From a virus, in the IMG/VR virus record IMGVR_UViG_3300046543_000266, positions 124,001 to 188,000 of that record: a stretch of 64,000 nt of DNA; one strand, given 5' to 3'. The notes beneath the pieces were generated by a model. It saw only the letters and a program-made list of their open reading frames with translations, had not been told where the DNA came from and made no database searches. Within the stretch, counting starts at the first letter, position 1. Each line of letters opens with the position of its first letter. Shown one piece after another: positions 12,737 to 58,832 of this stretch. Both the position numbers and the translations under genes were made by a program.

Positions 12737-12744
12737 GAGATAGC

Positions 12745-12945
12745 ATGTCCCAGCCAGTAGCAGACGGGGTGGCCCAATTCGCGTTCGCGTGTCTTGGGGA
12801 CCCCTATGTGGTGATTCCAGCCAGTGCCGCGACCCCGAAGTACAACAGCTTCCCGTTCGCTGTAGAGGGTGAAGTGTACAACGACGGGTCCGTGGGATTG
12901 TCTGCCAACAGTCAGCAGCAGCCGATCGTCATGATCTGTATGTAA
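12745..12945 (+). CDS. Small accessory protein behind tailspike paralogue 3
   Basis: 66 residues, no recognised domain (MSQPVADGVAQFAFACLGDPY). It is the positional counterpart of the 68-residue protein at 7623, following a tailspike gene by 8 bases. AGGAGATAGC immediately before the ATG gives a good ribosome site. Role unknown. Confidence 0.65.
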   Translation: MSQPVADGVAQFAFACLGDPYVVIPASAATPKYNSFPFAVEGEVYNDGSVGLSANSQQQPIVMICM

Positions 12946-12966
12946 CGCATTCAAAAAGAGAACCAT

Positions 12967-14529
12967 ATGAATTTTCAAATCACACAAGCGGCACTCGATG
13001 CGTTGGCGGTCACTCCGGGATTGAGGCCCACCCTGTATCGCCTCGGTAGCGGCACTGGCTACACACCGGTTCCCGGCGATATCGCTATCCACGGTGGTCT
13101 GATCTATCAGGGATCGCTGACCACACAAGACGTCGTCAGTGGTAACATCATCCGCCAATCGGTGGTGCTGCCGTATGACTTGGGTCCCTTCGATTTCGGT
13201 GAAGTCGGCCTGTACACCGAGAGCGGTATGCTGTTTGCATTGGGCGTGTGTGACGTGCTCATGCACAAGACGGTGAACAGCGACACCACGAAAGCCAATT
13301 CCATTCGCTTCGACGCGTATCTGTCGAGCGTCGGCTCCATGTACAATATGTGGCTGGACGTTGCGGAAACTAGCAACGCCTTCCAGATGGCAGTGCTGGA
13401 TTCGGTTGATCAGTTGCCGATGGCGGCTAACAGTGTTCCGGCTGCGTACATCATTCGCGGCCGCAATCTGGCAGACAGCTTCCGTGCCTACACCGATGGT
13501 TACGGTCTGTGGAACTTCGACGAGTACGTGGTAACGCCGACTCCGAGCACGGTAGTGTCGGCAGACATGAACAGCATAACGCTGCCGATCTCGGATTACT
13601 ACGGATACACGAGTGTCACGTCGGATGGTGACCTGATCGTAGAGTTTATCACGGGCGCTTGCTACTCGACGCCGCGTATCGTCCACCAAGCTGTCATCAG
13701 CGGGGCGAACATCACGCTGATCTATAAGACCCCGCTGCAAGTATCACCGCAGCCGGGCGACCAGTTCCTGATCTTCAAGCGACGCACGGGCACGCAGTAC
13801 GTGTTGCCCATCGCGAGCTCGACGATTCTGGGTGGTGTGAAGATTGGTTCTGGTATCACCATCTCGGCAGACGGCACGATCAGCGCAGCAGGTGGTGGCG
13901 GAGGCGGCTCGGATTACACTCTTCCGGCGGCAACGACGTCTGTTCTGGGTGGCGTGATCGTCGGCGCTGGATTGGCTGTGCAGCTCAATGGTCTGATCAA
14001 CGTGAAGGCCGCAACGTCGGCGCAGATCGGTGGTGTGAAAGCCGGAACCTCGATGACCATCGCAGGTGACGGAACGATCGACTACAATCTTCCGAAAGCG
14101 ACTGCCGTGGTATTGGGTGGTATCAAGGTAGGTACGGGCTTGACAGTCGCCGCAGACGGTACGCTGTCAGCAGTGGCTACGACCAATCCGTACGACATGC
14201 CGATTGGATACATCGGGGCAATGCCCGCCAACAATGCGCTGATGGCGCGTGTGATGTTCGCACGTCAAGTTCAGTTCCCGAATAACTTCACAGGTTCGGT
14301 GGCGAGTGCAGCGACGGCGGCGACGGGTACGGTTGTCCTGTCCGTGCGTAAGAACGGTACGGAAGTCGCACAGGTGACGTTCTCAGCTGGACAAGCGACT
14401 GGTGCAGTAACCGGTGCCAGCGTCACGTTCAACGCTGGTGACGTGCTTACTCTGTACACGACCCAAACGATTGCCGATGCCACGTTGGCGAACATGAGCG
14501 TCACGCTGACGGGTACGCGCCTGTCCTAA
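12967..14529 (+). CDS. Tail fibre protein, DUF3751-like N-terminus plus LGGVK repeats
   Basis: 520 residues. The N-terminal ~150 residues contain LGSGTGYTPVPGDIAIHGGLIYQGSL and DLGPFDFGEVGLYTESGMLFALGV, the hallmark of the phage tail-collar fibre family (DUF3751 type) that docks P2/Mu-like fibres to the baseplate. A middle domain runs to about residue 280. Then come LPIASSTILGGVKIGSGITISADGTIS-type shaft repeats, separated by a Gly-rich hinge, and a tip (LSVRKNGTEVAQVTFSAGQATG) related to the tip of the fibre at 4292-5593. The minus-strand fibre at 18418-19896 has the same plan. Confidence 0.85.
   Translation: MNFQITQAALDALAVTPGLRPTLYRLGSGTGYTPVPGDIAIHGGLIYQGSLTTQDVVSGNIIRQSVVLPYDLGPFDFGEVGLYTESGMLFALGVCDVLMHKTVNSDTTKANSIRFDAYLSSVGSMYNMWLDVAETSNAFQMAVLDSVDQLPMAANSVPAAYIIRGRNLADSFRAYTDGYGLWNFDEYVVTPTPSTVVSADMNSITLPISDYYGYTSVTSDGDLIVEFITGACYSTPRIVHQAVISGANITLIYKTPLQVSPQPGDQFLIFKRRTGTQYVLPIASSTILGGVKIGSGITISADGTISAAGGGGGGSDYTLPAATTSVLGGVIVGAGLAVQLNGLINVKAATSAQIGGVKAGTSMTIAGDGTIDYNLPKATAVVLGGIKVGTGLTVAADGTLSAVATTNPYDMPIGYIGAMPANNALMARVMFARQVQFPNNFTGSVASAATAATGTVVLSVRKNGTEVAQVTFSAGQATGAVTGASVTFNAGDVLTLYTTQTIADATLANMSVTLTGTRLS
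13914..13962 (+). repeat. 49-bp segment identical to 4714-4762
   Basis: Second copy of the exact 49-base repeat, lying in the LGGV shaft of a different fibre gene about 9.2 kb away. It is in the same reading frame and encodes the same residues (TLPAATTSVLGGVIV). Confidence 0.9.
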
Positions 14530-44529: not shown

Positions 44530-46068
44530 TTAGCGACGTGCCTTCTTCACCGGAGCCTTCTTACGTGCGGGCGGCTCGTCGTCCTCGTCTTCATCTTCGT
44601 CGTCGAAGTCATCGTCATCTTCATCTTCTTCCTCGACGACCTTCTTGCTTTTGGCTGCCGTCTTCTTGGCGGGAGCCTTGGCTACCGGCTTCTTGGCACC
44701 CTTCTTGGGCGGCGGGGCTTCGTCTTCATCTTCGTCGTCGAAGTCATCTTCATCTTCGTCATCCGAATCTTCGTCCTCGTCCTCGTCTTCCTCGACGGCG
44801 GCCTTCTTGCCCTTGGCTACAGGCTTCTTCGCCGGGGCTTTCTTGGCACCCTTCTTCGGAGCCGGCTCGTCGTCTTCGTCTTCGTCTTCGTCCTCGTCGT
44901 CGAGATCGTCGTCTTCGTCTTCCGAGTCTTGATCATCCTCGTCGTCCGAATCTTCGTCCTCGTCTTCATCATCGCCGAAGTCGTCCTCGTCTTCTTCGTC
45001 TTCCTCGACCTTCTTGCCCTTCTTGGCCGGTGCAGCCTTACCCTTCTTGGGCGGCGGTGCATCGTCCTCGTCTTCATCTTCGTCGTCGAAGTCATCGGAC
45101 TCTTCGTCCTCGTCTTCTTCGTCTTCCTCAGCAGCCTTCTTGCCCTTGCCCTTTGCCGGAGCAGCCTTCTTGGCGGGAGCCGGTTTGCCCTTGCCCTTCT
45201 TCGGCGCCGGTTCGTCGTCCTCGTCCTCGTCTTCCTCGTCGAGGTCTTCGTCCTCTTCGTAGTCGTCTTCAGCAGCCTTCTTGCCCTTCGACTTCACCTT
45301 GATGCCCATGCGCTTTGCCCACGATTCGTAGTCACGCTTGGTTTCTTCTTCCGTCGATTCAGCAGCCAGATCCGACAGGTCCCACGTGAGGAATGCCAGT
45401 TCTTCTTCGGTCAGCGGCGAACGCTCGCCGATCTGCACGGAGTACTGCTCAGCCGGTGCCTTCGTGCTGTCGAACATGATACGCACGTCGCAACCGAACT
45501 TATCGTGGCTGACTGCGTAGGCCGTCGTGCTGCCAGTCTTCTTCGACGTTACCGTGTTGAGGGGCTTCAGTTCAGCCAGCTTGCGGATAGCGCCGCCCGG
45601 CAGTGCCAGAGCAACCCACGGTGTCCACGTTTCCGAGTCCTTGTCCTTGTGGCCCGACTTGCGTTCGGCAGCCGTCGGCTTCGGCAGACGCGACGGTTGC
45701 TGCTTCTGGGCAGCACGCGACAGAGCGTTGCAGTAGAACTTCTTTGCCACCTGAACCGTCTTCTTGTCGTTCTCGCGGATGTCTTCCTCTTCCTGCACGA
45801 TTGCATACCACGGATCGTACTTCGTGGTGTCGAACTGCTGCGTGTCCGGATCGTACGACGGGAAAGAGACCGGGAACTTCGTGGGCTTGCCGTCCTTCGT
45901 CTTCGTCTTGACCCAACCCGTTGCGTAGCTGAACGTCGGTCCGAAGAAGCGGAACGTCACCCACTTCTTTTCCGGGAACTTGAACAGGTTGATCTTGTCG
46001 GTGATCTTCGGTTTGTCCGAACGGTTGCCAGTGCGGACGTTATCGAAATCTGTACCCTTTTGAGCCAT
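44530..46068 (-). CDS. Single-stranded DNA-binding protein (gp32-like) with alternating acidic/basic tail
   Basis: 512 residues. The first ~255 look like a phage ssDNA-binding protein: KWVTFRFFGPTFSYATGWVKTKTKDGKPTKFPVSFPSYDP, AKKFYCNALSR, VALALPGGAIRKLAELKPLN and VSHDKFGCDVRIMFDSTKAPAEQYSVQIGERSPLTEEE. From about 265 to the end there are five Asp/Glu blocks, each followed by a Lys/Ala/Pro block (PAPKKGKGKPAPAKKAAPAK type), ending in basic residues. SSBs normally end in one short acidic tail, so this is exceptional. Next to recA, it should cover ssDNA and recruit partners. The SSB assignment rests on context and pattern. Confidence 0.6.
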   Translation of the reverse strand: MAQKGTDFDNVRTGNRSDKPKITDKINLFKFPEKKWVTFRFFGPTFSYATGWVKTKTKDGKPTKFPVSFPSYDPDTQQFDTTKYDPWYAIVQEEEDIRENDKKTVQVAKKFYCNALSRAAQKQQPSRLPKPTAAERKSGHKDKDSETWTPWVALALPGGAIRKLAELKPLNTVTSKKTGSTTAYAVSHDKFGCDVRIMFDSTKAPAEQYSVQIGERSPLTEEELAFLTWDLSDLAAESTEEETKRDYESWAKRMGIKVKSKGKKAAEDDYEEDEDLDEEDEDEDDEPAPKKGKGKPAPAKKAAPAKGKGKKAAEEDEEDEDEESDDFDDEDEDEDDAPPPKKGKAAPAKKGKKVEEDEEDEDDFGDDEDEDEDSDDEDDQDSEDEDDDLDDEDEDEDEDDEPAPKKGAKKAPAKKPVAKGKKAAVEEDEDEDEDSDDEDEDDFDDEDEDEAPPPKKGAKKPVAKAPAKKTAAKSKKVVEEEDEDDDDFDDEDEDEDDEPPARKKAPVKKARR

Positions 46069-47924: not shown

Positions 47925-48053
47925 TTACGTGAAGCTGATGTGCAGGTGTTGGAACAGGTGGATTAGCCAGCCGAACTCCGTGTAGACGCCGATCACCAGC
48001 AGAGTTGCCACCCATAATAACAGTAGGCCAATCCAGAATTCACTCTTGTTCAT
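47925..48053 (-). CDS. Small membrane protein, 42 residues
   Basis: A short frame from ATG 48053 to TAA 47925: MNKSEFWIGLLLLWVATLLV and onward. One clear transmembrane helix spans about residues 7-24; the tail is His/Phe-rich (GWLIHLFQHLHISFT). Its ATG overlaps the stop of the GntR-like gene by four bases. GGAG lies ten bases upstream. Function unknown; an inner-membrane modifier is possible. Confidence 0.55.
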   Translation of the reverse strand: MNKSEFWIGLLLLWVATLLVIGVYTEFGWLIHLFQHLHISFT

Positions 48054-48325
48054 GGGTATGCAACTCCGGCACGCTCTTGCCATGCAATCACTTCGGGATT
48101 GCGCGTCTTCCAGCGGCCAGCCGGATTTACCTTAGTGCCAGCGCGCGGACGCATGGTTATCACGTTCAGCAGCGTGAGTCGGCTGAGCGCTTCACGCAGA
48201 ACGGTACGGCTCACCCCCAACTGCACAGCCAGATCCAGCTGATCCGGAAGCATACCGCCGGGGCCGACTTTGACTACGAGGTCAACCAACGATTCGAGCG
48301 TCTTATCTACTTTGCTGACTGCCAT
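48050..48325 (-). CDS. Stand-alone GntR-type winged-helix DNA-binding domain
   Basis: 91 residues. PGGMLPDQLDLAVQLGVSRTVLREALSRLTLLNVITMRPRAGTKVNP is the GntR/FadR winged helix, including the helix-turn-helix LGVSRTVLREAL and the GTxV wing. The next part, WKTRNPEVIAW, is the linker segment that in FadR-type regulators leads into the ligand-binding FCD domain, but the protein stops there. So it is a regulator reduced to its DNA-binding half, either acquired from a host or specialised as a constitutive or interfering binder. Confidence 0.75.
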   Translation of the reverse strand: MAVSKVDKTLESLVDLVVKVGPGGMLPDQLDLAVQLGVSRTVLREALSRLTLLNVITMRPRAGTKVNPAGRWKTRNPEVIAWQERAGVAYP

Positions 48326-48349: not shown

Positions 48350-48823
48350 TTAATAGTCGGCTACTGCGGTGTGATAGCAAACGATGCCGCGTGCGCGCCA
48401 CATATCGACTACGCATTGACGATCGTCGAACGCCATGAACACGTCGGCCAAGTCGAAGCCCGCTTGCTGCACGATCCACGGCTTGTAGTCTTCGTCCGAC
48501 ATCTTCGCAAGACCGTGGAGGCCGGGCGGACGCATCAGCAGTTGATCGTTGGTGATCTTCGGGCCAACGTACTCGTGAATCTGGTGGAGCGTCATACCCC
48601 GATACTCAGGACCGTCGCCACGGCTGGTAACGAACAGCATGTGGAACGCCGGATTGTCGTAGAAGGCGCGGTAGACGTGTGCTCCTTGTGGGATCACCGT
48701 GTCATTGACCGTTGCCTTGATGTAGGCTTCACGATCACCCTTGAAGTAGTGGGCCGTGCGATGGCTGGAGTTGATGAGGCAGCCGTCCAGATCACAGATG
48801 ACCAGCTTGATTGGTGCTTGCAT
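48350..48823 (-). CDS. HAD phosphatase resembling the 3'-phosphatase half of T4 polynucleotide kinase
   Basis: 157 residues. ICDLDGCLIN supplies the HAD nucleophile motif DxDG (Asp 11 and 13); FVTSRGDG is motif II; DVFMAFDDRQCVVDMWRARGIVCYHTAVADY is the distal motif. The DDRxxVVxMWRxxGxxCxxxAxxD ending is specific to the polynucleotide 3'-phosphatase domain (PNKP/T4 Pnk C-terminal). The kinase half is absent. It may repair 3' ends of DNA or RNA or act on nucleotides in the modification operon. Confidence 0.75.
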   Translation of the reverse strand: MQAPIKLVICDLDGCLINSSHRTAHYFKGDREAYIKATVNDTVIPQGAHVYRAFYDNPAFHMLFVTSRGDGPEYRGMTLHQIHEYVGPKITNDQLLMRPPGLHGLAKMSDEDYKPWIVQQAGFDLADVFMAFDDRQCVVDMWRARGIVCYHTAVADY

Positions 48824-48856
48824 GAGGGAACCTCGTTGGGTTGGTTGTGGAGATGA

Positions 48857-49309
48857 TCAGTTGGCGGCTGCGGTTTCCGGCGACGCGAGCAGCAGTGCGC
48901 GCTCAGCGATCATGCGTTGCTTGGTGCGACGCTTCTCCAACAGCAGCGCGAAGTAGAAGATCGCGTCGAGAAGCGTTTCGTCCAGCGACTCGGTGGCATT
49001 CGCATCACCTTCAACGTTGAACACGTCGTAGTTCAGCAGTTCGCACTGCGTCTCGAGGCGGTCGATCTTGCGCCAGATCGTGAAGAAGGCACCCGGTCCC
49101 ACACGCTTGCACCACGACGCGCCGTACTCGCTGTCCTTCTTGATGCCGAGGTCGACCAGTTCGTTCATCATCTGGCGGATGTTCTCGAAGTTGGTATGCG
49201 GCAGGTCACGGTCTTGAATCAGCGAGTTGGGGAAAAAGGACACGCCGAAGTCCGGATGCAGCATCGACTGTTGTTTGGGTTGTTGGGGTTGTTTGGGTTG
49301 GTTGCTCAT
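48857..49309 (-). CDS. MazG/DUF1599-like nucleotide-metabolism protein (tentative)
   Basis: 150 residues with a Gln/Pro/Lys-rich start. The core IKKDSEYGASWCKRVGPGAFFTIWRKIDRLETQCELL...TESLDETLLDAIFYFALLLEKRR resembles the helical DUF1599 / nucleotide-modification-associated family, where K.xxYGxSWxxxG is followed by a KxxRI helix and an acidic ExxxD helix. Such proteins are linked to dNTP handling in modified-base phages. The assignment is by pattern only. Confidence 0.5.
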   Translation of the reverse strand: MSNQPKQPQQPKQQSMLHPDFGVSFFPNSLIQDRDLPHTNFENIRQMMNELVDLGIKKDSEYGASWCKRVGPGAFFTIWRKIDRLETQCELLNYDVFNVEGDANATESLDETLLDAIFYFALLLEKRRTKQRMIAERALLLASPETAAAN

Positions 49310-49506
49310 GTTGGTTCCTTGGGTTGGAAGCGGTTCAATACTACGGCGGTTCCGTCAGCGCTAATACGTTGCCACACTAGCGCTTTCTCTTCGACGCTGA
49401 GGAATACCCAATTGTCTACTTCGAATTGGGTACGACCGCAGCCTTTGCATTTGGCGTCGAAGAGCGTGGAACACACGCCGATACATGGGGTGTCGAGTCC
49501 GTGCAT
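49306..49506 (-). CDS. DUF1289-family small cysteine protein
   Basis: 66 residues from ATG 49506, which overlaps the stop of the upstream gene (TAATG); a GTG at 49530 is the alternative. DTPCIGVCSTLFDAKCKGCGRTQFEVDNWVFLSVEEKALVW matches DUF1289: PCIGVC, CxGCGRTxxEVxxW. Four Cys are probable metal ligands. Bacterial members are often encoded beside metabolic genes; function is unknown. It overlaps the next gene by four bases. Confidence 0.75.
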   Translation of the reverse strand: MHGLDTPCIGVCSTLFDAKCKGCGRTQFEVDNWVFLSVEEKALVWQRISADGTAVVLNRFQPKEPT

Positions 49507-50600
49507 TACTTCATCCGGCGGCCGAGCCACATGATACCGGCGGTCAGCCAGTCGTTGCCGAGCTTGGTGTCGAGGTCAAGCTGGAGGCACTGCTTGTTGT
49601 ACGTGAGCAGAGCCAGACCGCTCGCCGTGTCGCCGGCCTTGTGCATGTTGTAAGCCCGAGCCATCGGCATTGCCACGTAGTCCAGGAACTGGTTCTCGTA
49701 GTCACGGGGGTTCACCTGCTCGGTACACACCGTGACGAAGTCGCGCAGTTCGTCTTCGAATTCATCGCTGTCAGCTTGCAGCGGCAGCGGTGCCACGTCT
49801 TCGTCATACCGACCTGGATAGGCCAGACCACCCTCGACCCCACGGAAGCCGTTGCCCGCGCGCTCGATGAACCGCTTTGTTACGTCGAACTCCGTGTAGA
49901 TGTGCAGGTTGTTGGACACCTGATAGTAGTTGCCAACTTCGACGCCGATCTTGTTCGCCAGATATTCATGGAGGAACGCGAAGTGAACGGCGTTGGCGCC
50001 GTAGGCACCCCAGATCATGTCGTTGCTACGGTTCGTCACCGTGATATTGAGCTTGCCCTGACAGATGTCGACGTAGACCGCGGTATTGCACGGCAGGTCC
50101 TTCGACGTCTGGTTCAGCAGATCCGACGGCTTATACTCGTTGTACATGCCGATGCCGCTTTCGTGCTCGACATCTTCGCCCTTGCCGTCCCACATGCTGA
50201 TCACACAGCGACGGCTGCCCGGATTCTTGCGCAGTTCGGCGATCACGGCGTCCAGCTGATCGTAGCCGAAGTGGTTGCGCCAGCGGAAGCCATACGCGCC
50301 GTTGAGCGTCTCACCGTCGTCGGTGTACTGGAGCATCTGCTTGGCATAGTAGCCGATGGTCGCCACGTCGTTGTTGCCATTCAGCATCCACATGCTTTCG
50401 ATCAGGTGGAGGAACGGGTTGGCGTCGCGAGCCTTGCTGAACGACACACGGTGCATCGGGCTCGACCACATGGTCGTCACCGGACGGGGGAAGCGCAGGA
50501 CCGGACCGTTGCGGCTGTCGGTGACAACACCGTTGGCGAGGATCTGGGGGATGCCAATGCTGAGGGCATGGTCCGGGTTAGCTGCATGAATCACAAACAT
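49506..50600 (-). CDS. Thymidylate-synthase-family enzyme (TS or dUMP hydroxymethylase)
   Basis: 364 residues from ATG 50600, with AGGAG six bases upstream. LPCNTAVYVDICQGKLNITVTNRSNDMIWGAYGANAVHFAFLHEYLANKIG holds the nucleophile Cys (about 171), the phosphate-binding Arg of NRSND and an Asn (about 203) aligning with the dUMP-selecting Asn. HIYTE follows. The GxYGAN spacing differs from classical TS (GxPFN), indicating a divergent subfamily. Relatives in modified-base phages make 5-hydroxymethyl-dUMP. With the hmdU-kinase-type gene upstream, hydroxymethylation of dUMP is the favoured reading over plain dTMP synthesis. Confidence 0.8.
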   Translation of the reverse strand: MFVIHAANPDHALSIGIPQILANGVVTDSRNGPVLRFPRPVTTMWSSPMHRVSFSKARDANPFLHLIESMWMLNGNNDVATIGYYAKQMLQYTDDGETLNGAYGFRWRNHFGYDQLDAVIAELRKNPGSRRCVISMWDGKGEDVEHESGIGMYNEYKPSDLLNQTSKDLPCNTAVYVDICQGKLNITVTNRSNDMIWGAYGANAVHFAFLHEYLANKIGVEVGNYYQVSNNLHIYTEFDVTKRFIERAGNGFRGVEGGLAYPGRYDEDVAPLPLQADSDEFEDELRDFVTVCTEQVNPRDYENQFLDYVAMPMARAYNMHKAGDTASGLALLTYNKQCLQLDLDTKLGNDWLTAGIMWLGRRMK

Positions 50601-50643
50601 GAACAACTCCTATGAGAAGGGTTTGATTGGTTGCATACACCAG

Positions 50644-50654
50644 CTTATTTACGC
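50644..50654 (-). promoter_or_regulatory. Late-promoter-like motif GCGTAAATAAG
   Basis: On the minus strand in the gap before the TS-family gene, 44 bases upstream of its ATG. Same core (GTAAATA) as the other motif copies. Confidence 0.45.
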
Positions 50655-50671
50655 GCTGGCTTAGAGTTGGA

Positions 50672-51676
50672 TTAGGAGCCTTTGTAGCCGCTGCGAGGCT
50701 CGCCTTCACCGCTGATGACGCGGCAGTATTTGTCGTACTCGCACAGACAGTTGCTGAGGTTCGCTGCGCTCAGGTCGACGAAGCCCGTCTCGAAGCTACC
50801 GGACCACCACTTCGGAGGCACGATCGTCTTCGCCAACTTGTTCATGTCGCGGCGCAGCTTGACCATCGGCTCGTTGAGAGCATTGCCGCGGACGTCGGCT
50901 TTACGACCGCCGCTCATCACTCGGTTCATACCCCGCGTAGTGCCCGGTCCAGGACTAGTGAACGTCTCGATGTCCGTGGCATTCATCAGCCACTTCTGGC
51001 TGTACGTCAGGTCGACGATAACCTGATATGCCATGAACGGTCCCCAACCTTGATACTCACGAAGGGTGGATACGGCCTCTTCCTGGGACTCCTTGAACTT
51101 ACTGCGCAATTCCTTGCGATCCTTCCACAGCGGATCCAGCCCAAAGTACGGGATGTAGTAAGCCTTGCTGTTGTCCGGCGGGTTCGTGCCCTTCGGGAAC
51201 ACGCTGTTGACGATGTAGGCACCGGTGATCAGCTTCTGCTTCTCGTTCTTGATAGCGTTGAACGTGGCGTAGGCTTTCTTGGCACTCCAGCCGTCGACTG
51301 GGAAGCTACCTTCGTCCATCATGCGTTGCAGCGTATCCGGCCAGTTGATGATACGAGCCAGCGCCAGCATGAACCACAGGTCCGGATGGTTCTGGTACGG
51401 CGTGATGATGTTGTCGATTATCCACTTGCTGACCGTGTCGAGCTCACGGTAGATGTTGCAGAAGCGGTAAGCGCGCAGCACTGGATCGTTGGTCCACGGC
51501 TTGGCCTTGCCTACGTGATAGCGCTTCAGGTAGATAGAGTGGCGCTCGATCCAGAACTTCGTGATCGACTCTACCTTGTTTTGATCTTCGGGCTGGAACA
51601 GATAGGGCAGCTTCTTCGGAGCCGCCGCTGGCTGATCAAACAGACTGCCTTGACTGGCGTTTGTTTTGCGCTTCAT
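50672..51676 (-). CDS. 5-hmdU DNA kinase helical-domain / aGPT-PPlase family protein
   Basis: 334 residues from ATG 51676, which overlaps the upstream stop (ATGA). ITKFWIERHSIYLKRYHVGKAKPWTNDPVLRAYRFCNIYRELDTVSKWIID matches the family named alpha-glutamyl/putrescinyl-thymine pyrophosphorylase or 5-hmdU kinase helical domain: FWxxxRHxIYxxR, PWTxDPxLxxYRFxNxYRELD. The helix-hairpin-helix-like GWGPFMAYQVIVDL and a C-terminal LCEYDKYCR follow. Known members process hydroxymethyl-uracil in DNA during thymine hypermodification. No P-loop is present, so the kinase must be separate, for example at 58128. Confidence 0.78.
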   Translation of the reverse strand: MKRKTNASQGSLFDQPAAAPKKLPYLFQPEDQNKVESITKFWIERHSIYLKRYHVGKAKPWTNDPVLRAYRFCNIYRELDTVSKWIIDNIITPYQNHPDLWFMLALARIINWPDTLQRMMDEGSFPVDGWSAKKAYATFNAIKNEKQKLITGAYIVNSVFPKGTNPPDNSKAYYIPYFGLDPLWKDRKELRSKFKESQEEAVSTLREYQGWGPFMAYQVIVDLTYSQKWLMNATDIETFTSPGPGTTRGMNRVMSGGRKADVRGNALNEPMVKLRRDMNKLAKTIVPPKWWSGSFETGFVDLSAANLSNCLCEYDKYCRVISGEGEPRSGYKGS

Positions 51677-51981
51677 TTGAATAAGCCTCGTGTTCTTTGA
51701 TTGGCAATCGTTGCCAGATACGTACCGTGACAGCGCTTGGGATTGCACCAACATCCGAGACGCTGTCCTTTTAAATCACGGCGGATCTCGTCTCGGGTTG
51801 GTGGCGTTTCTCCGTTAGGTGCTTCGAGCAATCCGTCTAGCCACTTCATGTGCTTGTCGCAGCATTCGGTACGCGTGCCGTGAACGCCGACCACAAAGGG
51901 ATTGCCGTACTTCTGAGGCCTCCCGATGTAGACGTCGTATTCGGATCGCTCGCAGTGGACAACCAACGGATGGTTCGTCAT
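51673..51981 (-). CDS. DUF4326 protein
   Basis: 102 residues from ATG 51981. VVHCERSEYDVYIGRPQKYGNPF, GTRTEC, WLDGLL and GQRLGCWCNPKRCHGTYLATIA are the DUF4326 signature (YDVYIGRPxxxGNPF; LGCWCxPxxCHGxxLA). The family occurs in phages and near nucleotide or DNA-modification genes; its chemistry is not established. Overlaps both neighbours by four bases, so it is translationally coupled to the sulfotransferase and hmdU-type genes. Confidence 0.8.
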   Translation of the reverse strand: MTNHPLVVHCERSEYDVYIGRPQKYGNPFVVGVHGTRTECCDKHMKWLDGLLEAPNGETPPTRDEIRRDLKGQRLGCWCNPKRCHGTYLATIANQRTRGLFK

Positions 51982-52772
51982 AGCAGGAAGTGTTCGGCTT
52001 CGATTGCACGAGTGCGCCAGTACATGCACTGGTCACCGAGCGACATGTTGCGAATGTCGTCTTCGGAATAGTACCCGAGCACCTTGCGCGCCAGCGTGTC
52101 CACGGTATGTGCGTGGGTTGTACCCCTATTTACGCTGCCGACCATTTCGTAGCCGAAGAGCTTGAAATCGCGCTCGTACAGACGGTTGATCAGGCCCAGA
52201 ACATCTTCGTCCAGTTCTTCGATTTTCAGCTTCGGACCAGTCGGATACTTCGTCTGATCCTTCGAGTGGCCGAACTCTTCGGTTTCCACGCCGATCATTT
52301 CACGCACCGTTTTCCAGTCGGCATCAAGGCGCTCGTAGCGGCCGATGAAGTCAGCGTAGCACTTGTTGCCTTGATAGAAGAAGTAATGCTGCGGGCAGAA
52401 GTGCGTGTACTTCCAGTCGAAGCGCACACTTACTTCGTTCAGATTGCGGCGCGCGAATTCGTTGAAGTCGGCATCGGCCGGCAGATTGTGTTGGCGCTTG
52501 TGCTCGGCCCACGAACTGATGAGACGAGTGTACGGATCACGCACGAAGCCGAACTTGAAGTACTCCTCGAAGTAGTGATGGGGCCACACTGCCGGGATGT
52601 CGGCAACGCACACGTGGAACACTTCGATCACACGTTCGAGCTTGGGAATGAACGACTGGTAGTCCAGCTTCAGCGGGTTGCTGTCATACTGGAAGAGGGT
52701 GCGGCGAATCGACGTTCCTGCAACCTTTGGGTTGTGCAAAAACATGAACTTGTTTTGGTCACTGATGATCAT
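51978..52772 (-). CDS. Sulfotransferase (PAPS-dependent)
   Basis: 264 residues. FMFLHNPKVAGTSIRRTLF is the 5'-phosphosulfate-binding loop of carbohydrate-type sulfotransferases (K/R in the loop binds the donor phosphate), and FKFGFVRDPYTRLISSW is the 3'-phosphate-binding motif. HYFFYQGNKCYADFIGRYERLDADWKTV and a C-terminal DFKLFGYEM complete the family pattern. It should transfer sulfate from PAPS to an acceptor hydroxyl, often a sugar. In this operon, the acceptor could be a sugar attached to DNA; this is an inference. A PAPS source may be the kinase at 58128. Confidence 0.8.
   Translation of the reverse strand: MIISDQNKFMFLHNPKVAGTSIRRTLFQYDSNPLKLDYQSFIPKLERVIEVFHVCVADIPAVWPHHYFEEYFKFGFVRDPYTRLISSWAEHKRQHNLPADADFNEFARRNLNEVSVRFDWKYTHFCPQHYFFYQGNKCYADFIGRYERLDADWKTVREMIGVETEEFGHSKDQTKYPTGPKLKIEELDEDVLGLINRLYERDFKLFGYEMVGSVNRGTTHAHTVDTLARKVLGYYSEDDIRNMSLGDQCMYWRTRAIEAEHFLL
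52125..52135 (-). promoter_or_regulatory. Late-promoter-like motif GCGTAAATAGG
   Basis: On the minus strand inside the 3' part of the sulfotransferase gene, about 144 bases upstream of the DUF4326 ATG. Shares GTAAATA(G) with the other copies; being intragenic, it is less certain. Confidence 0.35.
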
Positions 52773-53664
52773 TGAGCAGTCTCTTGAGGTATTCGCGGTC
52801 TTTGTTTTGAAACGCCAGTTCGGCCTTCAGTAGTAATTTACCCTTCTCGCGGAACTTGGCGCGCTTTTCTTTGTCTTTGAACAGGCCCGGTGCGTTCATG
52901 AAGTCGACGCGCAGGAAGGACGCAACGTGCTGAGCTTGCTTGCCGCGCTTGATCAAACCTGGGAACATCACCATCTGGCGCAGGAACGAGTCGTGGACAT
53001 GCTGGACCTTGCGCTCGCTGCCTGCACCACCTTGATCTTTCGGGTCGAAGGTGGTGTTCCACAGCATGTGATAGTCGACGACCGAACGATAGCCGTTGCA
53101 CAGCACCGCCAGATTGTGAACTGTGTCGATGCCCCACAGATCGCGCGTTTCCTTCTTGTCGATGCAGTGCAGCAGGATGTTCACATCGTAGCCCGCGACG
53201 TTGGTACACTTGTGATTCTTGCGCTCCAGTCCCCAACGTTCGATGATGTTCTTGTGCATGAAGTAAGCGCCAGCGCCGACCAGCGCGTTACCCTTGCGGA
53301 ACAGTTGCGGAGCCCTCTTCAGGAACCACTCGTCCGCAGCGCTGATGTCTTTGGTTGCGCCCACGTACTTGTCACCACGACGACCGTAGAACAGCATGTC
53401 GTCCTCTATCACCATTGCGAACTTGGCCCCCTGCTTGCGATGATGATCGAACACCGAGTAGCGCTTGTTCGGCAGCAGGATGTCGTCCTTGGTGCGCAAG
53501 AAGTCCACGTGCTTGGCGTAGGCTTCCTTCTTGTGGGCCGCATGCTCTGAGGCCGGGCACACCACTGTGATGTGCTTCTGCACTTCAGGGGACAGGTAGG
53601 ACAGCGTCTTCTGCCGTCCTACTCGCCCCTTGGTCAGCAGGTAGATGTGGTAGTCTTTATCCAT
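52759..53664 (-). CDS. Glycosyltransferase, TAGT-like (1)
   Basis: 301 residues from ATG 53664. DYHIYLLTKGRVGRQKTLSYL, HITVVCPASEHAAH and FAMVIEDDMLFYGRR (acidic metal-binding motif at 87-89) form the nucleotide-sugar-binding half of a GT-A fold. The (Y/F)xIYxxTxGR opening and the DD(M/L)xFY motif are shared with 54175 and 57238. They resemble the TET-associated glycosyltransferases of phages that decorate modified bases in DNA. Its ATG lies inside the end of the HNH-type gene. Confidence 0.65.
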   Translation of the reverse strand: MDKDYHIYLLTKGRVGRQKTLSYLSPEVQKHITVVCPASEHAAHKKEAYAKHVDFLRTKDDILLPNKRYSVFDHHRKQGAKFAMVIEDDMLFYGRRGDKYVGATKDISAADEWFLKRAPQLFRKGNALVGAGAYFMHKNIIERWGLERKNHKCTNVAGYDVNILLHCIDKKETRDLWGIDTVHNLAVLCNGYRSVVDYHMLWNTTFDPKDQGGAGSERKVQHVHDSFLRQMVMFPGLIKRGKQAQHVASFLRVDFMNAPGLFKDKEKRAKFREKGKLLLKAELAFQNKDREYLKRLLNDHQ

Positions 53665-54175
53665 ATGATACGTAGGTTCCAACCCACCCTTTATGGTGTT
53701 CTTTTATACCGCCGCAGACGGCCTTCATGCAAGAGTAGTCTAGACCGTGAATGCGGCATAGACCCCTGAGATTGTTTCCAATGTAGCTCACCCAACGTGG
53801 AGAAGTCACGTGGTAGCCGCGCGCCAGCTTGTTGCCAATCTCCACATCACCGCCGTTGAGGGCGCGCTCCGACAAGTTCTGAGCGGTTGTGATGAACCGG
53901 CAGTTACCCCAGACGTAATCACCGACGTCACCGAGGCGACCCATCTGGAATTCGGATACTGCCTTTCCGATCTGATCGGGGTGTTTTATACCGGCACGTT
54001 TCGCGAGCTTCATGTACTGGCGGAAGGTCAGCAAACAGACGCAACCACGACGACTAGCATTTCCGCGTAGATCGCGCCATTTCCTTCGCCATTGAAACCA
54101 GTAGCTCTGATCGAAGCTGAGCTTCTGCAGCACACCACAAGCTTCCTCTTCAGTTAGAACACGATCCCGAGTCAT
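53657..54175 (-). CDS. HNH/NUMOD-type homing-endonuclease-like protein
   Basis: 172 residues. WFQWRRKWRDLRGNASRRGCVCLLTFRQYMKLAKRAGI and SEFQMGRLGDVGDYVWGNCRFITTAQNLSER resemble HNH-superfamily proteins in which GNCRFIT..QN closes the metal finger. The classical DH pair is not obvious. The C-terminus LRGLCRIHGLDYSCMKAVCGGIKEHHKGW resembles the NUMOD/IENR repeat that gives homing endonucleases DNA specificity. It sits between two glycosyltransferases, overlapping one by one base and the other by eight, consistent with a free-standing selfish gene in the operon. Confidence 0.55.
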   Translation of the reverse strand: MTRDRVLTEEEACGVLQKLSFDQSYWFQWRRKWRDLRGNASRRGCVCLLTFRQYMKLAKRAGIKHPDQIGKAVSEFQMGRLGDVGDYVWGNCRFITTAQNLSERALNGGDVEIGNKLARGYHVTSPRWVSYIGNNLRGLCRIHGLDYSCMKAVCGGIKEHHKGWVGTYVSYG

Positions 54176-54942
54176 TAGACCAGCCCTCCGATTTTAGCAG
54201 CACCCCTCCAACTGATGCGAGTGTTGGAATCCGGGTGTTGGGCCGATGGCGGCTTTTCCTTCACGACATCGGGGTGCAGCTTGAGCAGCTTCTGCAGCGC
54301 AGCCTTCGCCATATCACGGGTACGTTCACCTTCTAGCCCACCTGGAGCGTCGGCCTTACGCTGCGCCACCGCCATGTCGTACGTGAGGGCGATTCGCGTT
54401 CCACCCTTGAGTAGTTGGAGCGTGTAGTCTATGTCCTCGTACGGAAATAAACGATCCCACACGATCTTCTTTACGGTGCCGCGGGACATGCCGAAGGCGA
54501 ATCCTAGATGGCTGTTCTCTTTGATACCACCCTTCGGCGCGAAAGCCTTGGTCCCGAGCCCGACGCACTTGTAGCGCGAGCACAGGTCCGGAAGCACCTT
54601 GGTCCAGAAGCCCTTGGTCACTTCGGGAACCGTCGACGCCACGACGTGCTTGTCCTGCTCCTTATCGAAGGCATACAGGTACAGATCGTCGTCGAACATG
54701 AACGCGTACTTGTGCGGGCTGTTCTCCATGATCCACTGGCGCTTGGCACTCAGCGTCTGGATGGACTTCGGCTGCGCCAGCACGTTGACCTTCGGGTAGT
54801 TGGCCTTGAGGATAACGACTTCATCCTTGGGGCATACCAGAGTGACGTGACCGTGCATTCCCTTAGGCAACCGCTCGACCGTCAGCTGGTTGGCAGTACG
54901 GCCCCGCGTTGGGATGTAGATATGATAGTTGATCTTGGACAT
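54175..54942 (-). CDS. Glycosyltransferase, TAGT-like (2)
   Basis: 255 residues. NYHIYIPTRGRTANQLTVERL, HVTLVCPKDE, LSAKRQWIMENSPHKYAFMFDDDLYLY (DDD at 84-86) and DRLFPYEDIDYTLQLLKGGTRIALTYDMA show a GT-A glycosyltransferase. The IPTxGR opening, the AKRQWI helix and FMFDDDL are shared with 57238-58116 (IPTHQR, AKKRQWI, QMDDDM) and fit the TET-associated glycosyltransferase family. The likely donor is supplied by the nucleotidyltransferases just upstream, and the acceptor may be a modified base in DNA. Confidence 0.7.
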   Translation of the reverse strand: MSKINYHIYIPTRGRTANQLTVERLPKGMHGHVTLVCPKDEVVILKANYPKVNVLAQPKSIQTLSAKRQWIMENSPHKYAFMFDDDLYLYAFDKEQDKHVVASTVPEVTKGFWTKVLPDLCSRYKCVGLGTKAFAPKGGIKENSHLGFAFGMSRGTVKKIVWDRLFPYEDIDYTLQLLKGGTRIALTYDMAVAQRKADAPGGLEGERTRDMAKAALQKLLKLHPDVVKEKPPSAQHPDSNTRISWRGAAKIGGLV

Positions 54943-55676
54943 CAGAAGCGAGCCTCGTTTCTGCGTTGGAATTCCGCCAGATGCTCAGGCGTACCCAGAT
55001 TGGTGAACTGACGGGTCTCGAAGTACCGCAGCGGCAGTCGTGTGATCCCGTTGATGACGGCGCTCAGTGGCAGTTCGGCATAAGGCTTTCTGTTGCGCTC
55101 GGCTTCAAGGAACGCATCCGCCATGTCGTCCACGTTACGGAACCAGTAGCAGCCAGTGTTGATGTAGTCGGAGATCCGCAGCTTCTCGGACAGACCATGG
55201 AACACGGCAGTCTTACGCCACGCCGAATGATACTTGGCTGGATTGTTCAGGAAAGAGTACTCTTCCGACCCGCTCTTGTCTTCGTAGGCAATGACGCCGG
55301 AGCTGCCCTCGATGACTGCTTCGGTCATGGTGTACTTGAGGTCGACGTGTGCCGAGCAGTCACAGTCGAAGATGATGACCGGTCCTTCACGCGGTGGATC
55401 GCACATCAACGCCAGAGCCATCGCGCTGAATGCCGGACCCGGCGAAACGTCTTCGAGATAGTGGACGGCCTTGAAGGTATCCCCGTACTGTGCGAGCAGC
55501 TCCTCGTCCTTGCGCAGGATCAGGATCTCGACGTCCGACGGTTCCAGCCCATACGAGTCGATAACCCATCGGTACATCGGGACGCCCGGAAGTACTTCGA
55601 TGAACGGCTTGCTGACCGGGAATCCCTGCTCCCGGAAGCGTGAGCCCATTCCGGCGGCGGACATTAGATAGCGCAT
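54942..55676 (-). CDS. Sugar-phosphate nucleotidyltransferase
   Basis: 244 residues. MRYLMSAAGMGSRFREQGFPVSKPFIEVLPGVPMYRWVIDSYG is the NTP-transferase signature (AAGxGxRF...PKP), here as SKPF with the catalytic Lys. VIIFDCDCSAHVD carries the metal-binding Asp pair, and YINTGCYWFRN is the typical product-site strand. It would make an NDP-activated sugar or polyol. Its start overlaps the end of the next upstream gene by 13 bases. Confidence 0.78.
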   Translation of the reverse strand: MRYLMSAAGMGSRFREQGFPVSKPFIEVLPGVPMYRWVIDSYGLEPSDVEILILRKDEELLAQYGDTFKAVHYLEDVSPGPAFSAMALALMCDPPREGPVIIFDCDCSAHVDLKYTMTEAVIEGSSGVIAYEDKSGSEEYSFLNNPAKYHSAWRKTAVFHGLSEKLRISDYINTGCYWFRNVDDMADAFLEAERNRKPYAELPLSAVINGITRLPLRYFETRQFTNLGTPEHLAEFQRRNEARF

Positions 55677-57202
55677 GATTGCTGTTCCATGAGTTGGTAT
55701 ATTTCTTGGCCCTTCTTGAACAGAGCCAGTTGTCGTTGCAGCGAATCGCTGTGTAGCGGCAGCATTGAGAAGAACAGCAGCGCAGTCATCGCCAGCACTT
55801 CTTGGAAGTCGATACCGAAGCGCTCCCGAACTACGACGCTGAAGTAACTAATGACCTCACGGTTCAGCGGAGGCGGGTTGATTGCCGAGACACTGTAGTG
55901 CCCGGCGATAATCGAGTCGTAGCCAACCATCGAGTGCAGCAGCTTTGCCAACTCGTAGCGGACGTCGCCGTATATGGAGCGCTCGTCGAATCCGTTGAGG
56001 CCGCGCGGGTCAAACACCTTGATGCTATTAGTGCGATGGTCATACGCGATGTTGCTGAAGCACAGGTCACCATGAACTACCGAGATACGGTCAGGGCGAT
56101 CGGGTATCTGTGCGATGCAGTGCTCGGACAATGCCGTAAGCTCAGGCACAATCTCCGAGAAGGTGTCGGACTGGCCGCTGGACTGACCACTGAGTTGTAG
56201 CTGCTGGATGCGCTGGCGAGTCTTACCTTCGATGAGCTCACGGAACGCCGCCGCTTCATGCAGGACGGTCTCTGAGTCGATATGGTGTCCCGGGTCACCA
56301 CCAATGAAGTCGAGGCACTTGTCGATGATGGTGTGCCACACACCAAACTCTTGATTGCCGAACACGTACAGTTCAGCCAGCGTCGGCAGCGGCAGGTACT
56401 CGATCTCGTAGGATCCGTAGCAGTCGTACGACAGCAGGGCCGGAGTGTACTTACGCAGCTTGACTGGGAGGTTGCTGTACCAATCGAACTCAGCGTGGAT
56501 CTTGGCTGGAGTACCACTCTTACTCACCACGTTGTCTTCGATGCGAAGTTGGTTGAAATGCCGCGACGTCAGGAAGTTCTGCTTGGACAGGAAGTAGGTA
56601 GCAGCGTGTCCGAAGTCAAACCAGTCGACGCCGTCCGTATAGTCCTGATAGGTTACGGCGACTTCGTCGTGAATCCAATCCAGGGCTTCACTGATATCGT
56701 CGTCAGGTGCTATCACACGCGCTACCGTGTTGAGCGGAGCCATGAAGTATCCGATGAACACAGCATTGCGGCCGTTATCCAAGCGTATATCCAACCAGTT
56801 GAAGTTACCCGGACGGGTCGCAGCCACCCCGATGCACGGAGTGGTCGCCCACTTGCTGATCAGTGTATCGCCCCACAGAACGTGTAGTTCCACACCCTCA
56901 CAGTTTCGAGCACCGTTCAAGTGGTTCACTATCCTGGTCACCGCATAGTACAGAACGTGCGACAACGGACGTGGGTGCTTGGACGAGTACTCACTTAACA
57001 TGGTCACGCGATCATCGCACGGCGGCATCGGGAAATCTTCCGGATGTGTGACAAATACCTTGTCGAAGTCTGCACCCATCTTCAGCTGATGTTGGATCAA
57101 CGACTTGCCAGCTACCGGAATGCGTGAGGCGGGCAGCTTACCGAACATGAACTGAAGCTCGGGGTTGCACAGCGCTGAAGACAGGATAAGCAGGACCTTC
57201 AT
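55664..57202 (-). CDS. Fusion protein: nucleotidyltransferase-like domain plus APH-type kinase domain
   Basis: 512 residues from ATG 57202. Residues 1-230 look like a nucleotidyltransferase (GKLPASRIPVAGKSLIQHQLKMG, VELHVLWGDTLIS, DGVDWFDFGHAATYF), though the G-rich loop is degenerate. The C-terminal half is an aminoglycoside-phosphotransferase/choline-kinase fold: VVHGDLCFSNIAYD (catalytic Asp near 379) and IKVFDPRG (metal Asp near 398). This pairing is known from capsule sugar-activation proteins, which phosphorylate a substrate and then load it on a nucleotide. With the neighbouring nucleotidyltransferase it probably builds the donor for the glycosyltransferases. Confidence 0.7.
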   Translation of the reverse strand: MKVLLILSSALCNPELQFMFGKLPASRIPVAGKSLIQHQLKMGADFDKVFVTHPEDFPMPPCDDRVTMLSEYSSKHPRPLSHVLYYAVTRIVNHLNGARNCEGVELHVLWGDTLISKWATTPCIGVAATRPGNFNWLDIRLDNGRNAVFIGYFMAPLNTVARVIAPDDDISEALDWIHDEVAVTYQDYTDGVDWFDFGHAATYFLSKQNFLTSRHFNQLRIEDNVVSKSGTPAKIHAEFDWYSNLPVKLRKYTPALLSYDCYGSYEIEYLPLPTLAELYVFGNQEFGVWHTIIDKCLDFIGGDPGHHIDSETVLHEAAAFRELIEGKTRQRIQQLQLSGQSSGQSDTFSEIVPELTALSEHCIAQIPDRPDRISVVHGDLCFSNIAYDHRTNSIKVFDPRGLNGFDERSIYGDVRYELAKLLHSMVGYDSIIAGHYSVSAINPPPLNREVISYFSVVVRERFGIDFQEVLAMTALLFFSMLPLHSDSLQRQLALFKKGQEIYQLMEQQSCAI

Positions 57203-57233
57203 TATGACCTCGGATTGTTGTGGGCGTACTACC

Positions 57234-57242
57234 CTATTTACT
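57234..57242 (-). promoter_or_regulatory. Late-promoter-like motif AGTAAATAG
   Basis: Exact 9-mer on the minus strand, overlapping the stop of the upstream glycosyltransferase gene and 32 bases upstream of ATG 57202. The best-spaced copy for a promoter with a short leader. Confidence 0.5.
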
Positions 57243-58116
57243 TCTGGCTGGCAGCATAGCATTTCTGCCAGTAGATGATGACTTCCTTGCGGGAGATGCT
57301 CTCTTTGTACTTACGGTCCACCACCTTGACGAACGGCTCGTGCGCACGCGCCAGCTTGACCGCAGCGATGTCCGAGCGCTTGATCGTCCGCTCTTCGAAT
57401 GCCCCACCCTTTGCCCCGTAGGACAGCGGGTTGACTACGAAGTTGTTCATGATTAGATTGGGGATGCCGCGCTTGAGCAGATGCAAGGTCACGTTGAAGT
57501 CTTCGCGGAACTTGATCTCGTCGAAGCGGATGTCGTTGTCGAGTAGCGTGCGGCGGTGATGACCCATCGCGTGCATGGCGCGACCGGCTTCCATGGTTTC
57601 CTTGCGCTGCCGATTGTTGTTCTGCCGTGAAGCAATGCAGGTATGCCGATACTCACGTTCGAGCATGGCATCACGGATGAAGTCGAAGCGGCGGATCTTC
57701 TGCTCGTCGGTGAAGCCGTCCTTGAACAGGAACAGCACACCCTTCTTCTTGTACTCAGGCAGCACATCCCACTGCACCTTCTTGGGGTCGAAGGCTCGAT
57801 ACTTCTTGTTGCAGCGCCGGAAGAAGTACATGTCGTCGTCCATCTGGAAGATGTTGTCCGACTTGACGTTCTCGATGATCCACTGGCGCTTCTTGGCGAT
57901 GCCGTCCACCGTCGGATCGTCGATAGCGTACACCAGATCGTGTTTATACTTCTTCTTTAAGGCCCGCGCATCTTCGAGGGTCGAAGTAATGAGCAGTACC
58001 TTGGCACGCAGTTCTTCGGGGATGCCCAAGAACGTCACTTGGCGATCCACCCGTTGATGCGTTGGTATGACCAGCTGAAAGTCTTTATCAGCCACGAGGA
58101 GTCTGTTCTTGAACAT
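57238..58116 (-). CDS. Glycosyltransferase, TAGT-like (3)
   Basis: 292 residues. FQLVIPTHQRVDRQVTFLGI, DDPTVDGIAKKRQWIIENVKSDNIFQMDDDMYFFRR (DDD at 93-95), HAMGHHRRTLLDNDIRFDEIKFREDFNVTLHLLKRGIPN and NFVVNPLSYGAKGGAFEER fit the TET-associated glycosyltransferase plan: IPTxxR, gi..KRQWI, DDD, and a later acidic catalytic region (F.EDF). First enzyme of the sugar-transfer set in transcription order after the kinase gene. Confidence 0.72.
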   Translation of the reverse strand: MFKNRLLVADKDFQLVIPTHQRVDRQVTFLGIPEELRAKVLLITSTLEDARALKKKYKHDLVYAIDDPTVDGIAKKRQWIIENVKSDNIFQMDDDMYFFRRCNKKYRAFDPKKVQWDVLPEYKKKGVLFLFKDGFTDEQKIRRFDFIRDAMLEREYRHTCIASRQNNNRQRKETMEAGRAMHAMGHHRRTLLDNDIRFDEIKFREDFNVTLHLLKRGIPNLIMNNFVVNPLSYGAKGGAFEERTIKRSDIAAVKLARAHEPFVKVVDRKYKESISRKEVIIYWQKCYAASQK

Positions 58117-58127
58117 GCCCGAGCCTG

Positions 58128-58832
58128 TTAGTAGGTGAGAACGAACTTGCGGAATCCGTCAGGTGTGTTCTCGATGGAAGGGTAGCCAGTGGCCTCGACG
58201 TTGTACTTGGTGACGCCGTGCTCGACCGTGGTGGCGGGAACCATCAGACCACGCAGTTCGAAGTCGTCGAACAGATACTCTTCCATCGTGGCTGCGTTGA
58301 TAACGCGCCACTGATTGGTGTGGCCGTCCGAATGCGTGTTGTACCGGATGTAGTACTTCTTGTGACCGGTCGTCACCACCTTGGCGATCTGACGTGCTTC
58401 CTTGTCGAACTCTTCGGCGCTCTCCAGATAGTTGCCGATCTGATAGTCCACCTCATCGTACTTGGGCGGCACGTACATCTTGTTCGTGTCCTCGAAGCGG
58501 CCCTTGTCGATGGTGTTCATCCACACCTTGAACACGTCGTCTGTGTGATCGAGGAACTGTTCTTGGAACGCGTTGCGCGTGGTTGCCAGCGGACACACGA
58601 AGTCGACGATAACCCAATGGCCTTGGAAGTGCAGCATCCGAGCCAACTGACCGAGAGTGGTTGCTTGCTTGACGCGGTCCAGGTTGGAGAAGCCCAGATG
58701 CGACGTGATGGTGCTACGCGCCCAGTCAGCGTTGACGTGGATGGCGTTCAGCTTCTGTTGGAGAACCTTTGCCAACGTGGTCTTGCCGCTGCCGGGCAAA
58801 CCCTGAATGAAGATGACTTTGTTTTGGCTCAT
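58128..58832 (-). CDS. P-loop kinase, adenylylsulfate-kinase-like
   Basis: 234 residues. FIQGLPGSGKTTLAKVLQQKL is the Walker A loop (10-18). VNADWARSTITSHLGFSNLDRVKQATTLGQLARMLHFQGHWVIVDFVCPLATTRNAF matches APS kinase step by step (NxDxxR, LGFSxxDR, G.VVI.xFxxP...R). MYVPPKYDEVDYQI takes the place of the APS-kinase lid. The last ~75 residues (WRVINAATMEEYLFDDFELRGLMVPATTVEHGVTKYNVEATG) are an added domain. It may make PAPS for the sulfotransferase, or be the separate hmdU-DNA kinase; the sequence alone cannot decide. Confidence 0.72.
   Translation of the reverse strand: MSQNKVIFIQGLPGSGKTTLAKVLQQKLNAIHVNADWARSTITSHLGFSNLDRVKQATTLGQLARMLHFQGHWVIVDFVCPLATTRNAFQEQFLDHTDDVFKVWMNTIDKGRFEDTNKMYVPPKYDEVDYQIGNYLESAEEFDKEARQIAKVVTTGHKKYYIRYNTHSDGHTNQWRVINAATMEEYLFDDFELRGLMVPATTVEHGVTKYNVEATGYPSIENTPDGFRKFVLTY

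Follow-up and report, generated by a model that had tools for sequence, protein, structure and literature searches.

We predict, with a probability of roughly 0.55, that a 14-gene operon in a virus record (IMG/VR IMGVR_UViG_3300046543_000266; 217,605 bases) makes a glycosylated, probably sulfated derivative of hydroxymethyldeoxyuridine (hmdU) in the phage's own DNA. The stretch analysed, hereafter the window, comprises the 64,000 bases 124001-188000 of this record. The operon lies at window positions 48350-58832, with all of its open reading frames (ORFs) on the minus strand. The record belongs to the lineage of the Ralstonia jumbo phage phiRSL1, and no close DNA relative of it was found in the phage genome collection searched.

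Gene content and conservation of the operon

The operon is real: its synteny recurs at seven other distinct loci, and with two different sugar cassettes, which rules out chance. Gaps between neighbouring genes range from -25 to +71 bases, with several 1- or 4-base overlaps (after start positions had been adjusted with the help of aligned homologues and the ATGA overlaps). An original prediction, made from the sequence without database searches, had described a closely packed gene set on one strand, and all of the genes it named are indeed open on the minus strand. The genes are as follows, beginning with the first of the operon.

58128..58832, minus strand: adenosine phosphosulfate (APS)-kinase-family P-loop kinase with a ~75-aa C-terminal extension (PF01583, 56.6 bits)
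57238..58116, minus strand: TAGT3 glycosyltransferase (PF20691, 44 bits; phrog_842; DDDM motif)
55664..57202, minus strand: fusion of a nucleotidyltransferase-like domain and an APH-type kinase, NT-APH (phrog_24015; weak APH; conserved VHGDLCFSN and DPRG motifs)
54942..55676, minus strand: NT1, a nucleotidyltransferase of the nucleoside-diphosphate (NDP)-sugar pyrophosphorylase type (profile against PDB, 4e-6; phrog_3980)
54175..54942, minus strand: TAGT2 glycosyltransferase, the TAGT that best fits the Pfam family (PF20691, 131 bits; DDDL motif)
53657..54175, minus strand: HNH-type ORF (phrog_2081, 1.5e-7; L029 homologue, 68%)
52759..53664, minus strand: TAGT1 glycosyltransferase (PF20691, 41 bits; EDDM motif)
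51978..52772, minus strand: sulfotransferase (SULT) with motifs HNPKVAGTS and VRDPYTRLxS for binding phosphoadenosine phosphosulfate (PAPS) (PF03567, Sulfotransfer_2, 86 bits; phrog_3347)
51673..51981, minus strand: DUF4326 protein (PF14216, 78 bits; ATGA overlaps)
50672..51676, minus strand: HMUDK_hel (aGPT-PPlase1-like) helical protein (PF18723, 165 bits)
49506..50600, minus strand: putative dUMP hydroxymethylase of the thymidylate synthase (TS) family (PF00303, Thymidylat_synt, 77 bits; phrog_5131, 374 bits)
49306..49530, minus strand: DUF1289 small protein (PF06945, 49 bits)
48857..49309, minus strand: conserved small protein (phrog_1485, 3.6e-5; synteny in relatives)
48350..48823, minus strand: PNKP-type HAD phosphatase (PF25109, HAD_PNKP, 46 bits)

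The Pfam scores of the PNKP phosphatase, TS, HMUDK_hel, DUF4326, SULT, TAGT1-3 and APS kinase all exceed the curated cut-offs. Most labels of the earlier gene list therefore hold, among them the PNKP phosphatase, divergent TS, DUF4326, sulfotransferase, three TAGTs and APS-kinase-like P-loop kinase. That list had overlooked the DUF1289 protein and the HNH-like ORF. Its DUF1599/MazG label found no Pfam or NCBIfam support; the gene concerned has just the weak phrog_1485 match and is itself kept in synteny.

Relatives were found by alignment-based scans; contig scans that started from a single NT-APH or sulfotransferase sequence gave no matches. The further loci sharing the core (L003, L029, L030, L032, L034, L039 and L121) make eight with the window, and L030, in which the full gene set is present, is taken as the putative phiRSL1 locus. 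TS, HMUDK_hel, SULT and the APS-kinase-like gene are kept in 8/8 of these RSL1-type loci. Type A loci (the window, L029, L030, L032 and L121) carry NT1 and NT-APH with two or three TAGTs. Type B loci (L003, L034 and L039) have instead a UDP-galactopyranose mutase (GLF; 161 bits in L003) and a group-1 glycosyltransferase (GT), plus one divergent TAGT. That the sugar cassette is exchanged while the core stays the same implies a sugar as part of the product, its identity being variable. As the mutase and GT take the place of NT1 and NT-APH, the type B sugar is probably galactofuranose.

The predicted modified base

The dUMP hydroxymethylase of the YuA/M6 type is orthologous to the window TS over the full length (42% identity across 99%), and several records among the YuA/M6-group orthologues are annotated as deoxyuridylate hydroxymethyltransferase. 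Alignment to solved enzymes places an Asn in the window TS at the position where thymidylate synthase has Asn and the solved CMP 5-hydroxymethylase has Asp, a position known in the TS family to discriminate uracil from cytosine. Given this orthology and the Asn, the enzyme is expected to make the thymine substitute hmdUMP, and hmdU is very probably present in the phage DNA. The hydroxymethyl-derived thymine substitute bearing a sugar that had been proposed earlier is thereby supported, as it is by the TAGT family membership of the GTs and their DxD motifs. In L003 the TS gene (10973-13033) is split in frame at the catalytic Cys by an intein-like insert with HNH-like sequence, running from C to VTHN between flanking LP and CNLQV.

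Glycosyltransferases and predicted sugar activation

All three GTs of the operon retain an intact DxD motif, and the TAGT family to which they belong glycosylates phage DNA bases (PMC13216743). NT1 has no Pfam match; its family profile matches solved NDP-sugar pyrophosphorylases, which agrees with its earlier label as a nucleotidyltransferase and supports a predicted pyrophosphorylase function. The fusion gene proposed alongside it stands as a conserved nucleotidyltransferase-like and kinase gene, with an APH match that lies below the cut-off in the window (17.1 vs 23.2) and reaches it in the L029 homologue (23.9). NT-APH is predicted to activate a sugar from the free form. Its AlphaFold2 (AF2) model is poor (pLDDT 57), and the fold matches of that model (N-terminal sugar-nucleotidyltransferase-like, C-terminal sugar-kinase/APH-like) were not relied on.

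It could be argued that the sugar genes have no connection with the DNA and serve superinfection exclusion, by making or altering a polysaccharide of the host surface. UDP-galactopyranose mutase is known for its part in making cell-wall precursors and has been read in this way in Agrobacterium phage Atu_ph04 (PMC6630229), and NT1-type enzymes are generic sugar activators. However, TS, HMUDK_hel and the GTs belong to a single run of genes, many of whose frames overlap, and HMUDK_hel adjoins TAGTs or other GTs across unrelated phages. Moreover, a check suggested with the original prediction, namely whether the GTs belong to capsule or lipopolysaccharide families, was run and placed every one of them in the phage-DNA TAGT family, so that a capsule or lipopolysaccharide reading of the GTs was set aside. 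A surface role for the sugar genes is accordingly regarded as very improbable, and glycosylation of hmdU in the DNA as likely.

Further tailoring genes were seen at other HMUDK_hel loci. At L005:3324-5063, beside HMUDK_hel and TS, lies a fusion of a TAGT with a radical SAM/SPASM protein, and more radical SAM genes lie close to HMUDK_hel in L143, L189 and L193, which suggests other sugar or base tailoring. PIG-L type deacetylases adjoin HMUDK_hel and a GT4 gene in three loci (L177:596-1147, L180:2164-2901, L186:6941-7504), which suggests that hmdU there carries an N-acetyl sugar and that this sugar is then deacetylated.

HMUDK_hel is paired with either a kinase or a glycosyltransferase

HMUDK_hel occurs as a single copy in the window record. 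Partner genes were compared over 134 HMUDK_hel loci, forming 107 clusters at 80% identity and labelled with locally built kinase and GT profiles. A kinase only was found in 43 clusters, a GT only in 41, both in one (L208) and neither in 22. The amino acid:DNA transferase was present in 28 of the 43 kinase clusters and in none of the 42 GT clusters. Before the GT profiles were extended to take in a Pfam-negative group (GTx), the counts were 52 kinase only, 38 GT only, 0 both and 28 neither (Fisher p 4e-13, relatedness ignored). On the HMUDK_hel tree the kinase/GT state changes at least 7 times, with 4 changes forced by well-supported branches. Given these repeated switches and the one cluster with both, the pairing has been re-made repeatedly and joint presence is rare.

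We tentatively suggest that HMUDK_hel is a base-presenting partner, which would offer hmdU in DNA to the next-acting enzyme. The best fold matches of its AF2 model (pLDDT 86) are the DNA-acting glycinyltransferase PUGT (E 0.07) and the AlkA/OGG1 DNA glycosylases, which agree with base presentation without proving that role; by sequence, its profile found no relatives in the PDB. Several points weigh against the suggestion: these fold matches are weak, the role rests on gene neighbourhood, 22/107 clusters have neither partner recognised, the partner labels are local, and GTx was counted as GT though without a Pfam match. Homology of HMUDK_hel to the amino acid:DNA transferase is not claimed, the profile match being weak (E 0.05, probability 1%).

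The sole locus combining an hmdU-kinase-like gene with a GT-like gene, the latter Pfam-negative, is L208:10892-12513. HMUDK_hel is also found in two giant-phage contigs (L151, 455,708 bases, and L199, 463,033 bases), where neither a TS nor a kinase or GT was recognised in its neighbourhood.

A predicted sulfation module

The PAPS-binding motifs of the SULT are kept across its relatives; a search of its profile against the PDB by sequence returned no relatives. The best PDB matches of the APS-kinase-like family profile are APS kinases (5.8e-18, vs 6e-4 for T4 polynucleotide kinase), and the protein is placed in the APS-kinase superfamily, with PAPS supply as its predicted role.

This kinase bears on a more classical route, in which it would act as the hmdU-DNA kinase and HMUDK_hel as the transferase, so that the primary substituent would not be a directly attached sugar. 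The short form of the kinase does adjoin HMUDK_hel or TS in L003, L029 and L121, and M6-type phages have a kinase gene adjacent to HMUDK_hel. However, the far better fit to APS kinases argues against such a role, as does BLAST against the YuA-group hmdU kinase, which aligns the P-loop only. Among 79 other viral loci with an APS-kinase-like gene, an RSL1-type SULT was nearby in 17 and TS or HMUDK_hel in none, and the kinase of L177 adjoins a sulfotransferase in a GT-type locus. No PF18748 hmdU kinase was found genome-wide in the window's own record, although the same profile detects the YuA-group kinase. The operon loci of the RSL1-type relatives gave no match to the local hmdU kinase profile, the genome-wide PF18748 search having covered the window record only. 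The amino acid:DNA transferase (PF18724) was absent from all nine RSL1-type records and found in the positive control W01. The classical route is thus quite unlikely, and the kinase/aGPT-PPlase amino-acid route implied by the original prediction is not borne out. Its identification of the helical protein holds, with the difference that HMUDK_hel here is a stand-alone protein, no HMUDK_HMUD1 kinase accompanying it in the record.

Two phages unrelated to the RSL1 lineage, with SULTs that differ from the RSL1 type, have a comparable arrangement. The gene order is HMUDK_hel - SULT - GT-like - TS in L150, and GT4 - PIG-L deacetylase - HMUDK_hel - APS kinase (47 bits) - SULT - TS in L177. SULT or APS-kinase-like genes were found in GT-type clusters only (9/42 vs 0/43 kinase-type, p = 0.001; p = 0.09 counting the RSL1 lineage once). 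The RSL1-type SULT was found in 0/118 HMUDK_hel loci without the APS-kinase-like gene. The earlier reading had included neither the SULT and APS-kinase pair as a sulfation module nor the kinase-or-GT pairing of HMUDK_hel; comparison now favours the module.

Some observations weigh against a sulfated product. The APS-kinase-like protein scores far under the TIGR00455 equivalog cut-off (52.2 vs 138.7 bits), and the SULTs of L150 and L177 fall just under the Pfam cut-off (21.7 and 24.3 vs 27) and were assigned partly by motifs. In addition, a related record of 230,110 bases (G001; L033/L035) keeps GLF and SULT, with TS, HMUDK_hel, TAGT and the cassette GT not detectable, and therefore SULT can occur without the hmdU genes. 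The SULT and APS-kinase-like enzyme might then act elsewhere, for example on a host surface or virion glycan, and be merely co-transcribed with genes that glycosylate hmdU in the DNA. Such a division would fit the gene content of G001, the PHROGs class of the operon sulfotransferase (moron/host takeover) and the co-occurrence of APS-kinase-like and SULT genes in phage loci without hmdU genes. Against it, none of the eight loci retaining the hmdU genes lacks SULT, L150 and L177 have an unrelated SULT between HMUDK_hel and TS, and no kinase-type locus was found to have either gene. G001 also has no matching GT, so its GLF and SULT may be remnants, or genes with another use. We consider this alternative rather unlikely, and sulfation of the DNA sugar plausible, at about even odds.

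The protein at L080:9998-10759 joins an APS-kinase-like domain to a C-terminal domain that resembles adenylyl/cytidylyltransferases by a weak match, and relatives of similar length to this fusion are common among the other viral loci of the family.

Proposed pathway and significance

In the proposed pathway, TS would make hmdUMP, which would be incorporated for part of the thymine, as its orthology and the Asn discriminator indicate. NT1 (by its profile) and NT-APH would activate a sugar as an NDP-sugar. The TAGTs would attach a first sugar and extend it while HMUDK_hel binds or presents hmdU, as suggested by family membership and the kinase-or-GT pairing. Finally, the APS-kinase-like enzyme would supply PAPS and SULT would sulfate the sugar, a step to which the PAPS motifs, the invariant linkage and the two independent cases point. 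The resulting DNA would be bulky and negatively charged, and would resist nucleases and other DNA-targeting defences.

In its widest form, the proposal is that phiRSL1-type jumbo phages, and independently L177-like ones, carry a sulfated glycosyl-hydroxymethyluracil, the first sulfated nucleic-acid base, and that HMUDK_hel is a partner-neutral base-presenting subunit for a kinase or a GT. We hold this at somewhat less than even odds. If true, the charge on the phage DNA would resemble that of heparin, which would affect how the DNA is packaged, how it withstands nucleases and how defence proteins bind it. The pairing also suggests a simple rule by which the DNA chemistry of a phage may be predicted: an amino-acid-type modification where HMUDK_hel accompanies a kinase, and a sugar-type one where it accompanies a GT. 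Furthermore, 'solitary' TAGTs of unassigned role occur in 288/753 phage genomes (PMC13216743), and hmdU is a candidate substrate for part of them. As phiRSL1 is cultured, these predictions are directly testable.

Other genes in and around the operon

The PNKP-type phosphatase also adjoins hmdU pathway genes in two unrelated loci (L016 and L018). The conserved small protein at 48857..49309 is possibly related to the nucleotide pool. The HNH-type ORF is probably a homing insertion, because it is present in L029 and absent from between the same genes in L030. A small GntR-type winged-helix protein is encoded directly downstream of the operon (window 48050-48325). Elsewhere, the ORF at window 44530-46068, whose tail is a very long acidic/lysine repeat, adjoins a UvsX/RecA-like gene and is possibly a phage single-stranded DNA-binding protein. 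PADLOC assigned no defence-system membership, the sole matches being weak P-loop ones of the operon kinase.

Comparison with known systems

Known DNA hypermodifications comprise sugars, amines, amino acids and phosphosugars. We know of no description of a sulfate ester on DNA, and literature searches likewise found none. Nor did the literature searched contain a glycosyl branch with SULT and PAPS supply, or the kinase-or-GT rule; this is consistent with the earlier statement that no described pathway has this gene set, and an earlier mention is possible.

The thymidine hypermodification systems of M6/YuA and ViI (5-NedU, 5-NeOmdU) share with the window the dUMP hydroxymethylase and HMUDK_hel, which are orthologous and partly syntenic. 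However, they use an hmdU kinase, an amino acid:DNA transferase and radical-SAM/PLP tailoring, where the window has GT, nucleotidyltransferase, SULT and APS-kinase genes. The T2/T6 TAGT (beta-glucosyl-HMC-alpha-glucosyltransferase) belongs to the same family (PF20691/phrog_842) and likewise acts on a hydroxymethyl pyrimidine in DNA. In T6 it adds a second glucose on cytosine after the alpha-GT, whereas the window has a predicted uracil and three TAGTs, with no T4-type GT seen in the operon. The thymine substitute of Bacillus phage SP-15 (dihydroxypentyluracil with phosphoglucuronolactone and a second substituent) is likewise negative and sugar-bearing, and is made by uridylyltransferase and glycosyltransferase genes (PMC5977210). 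Its charge, however, comes from a phosphodiester and not from sulfate, its base side chain is different, and no sulfotransferase features in the SP-15 account (PMC5977210). The cultured Brevibacterium phage LuckyBarnes has the order TS - TAGT - TAGT - HMUDK_hel with no kinase found, and differs in having no sulfotransferase or sugar-activation genes nearby. Taken together, thymine hypermodification via hmdU is of a known kind, whereas the glycosyl branch with SULT and PAPS supply is a new form of it.

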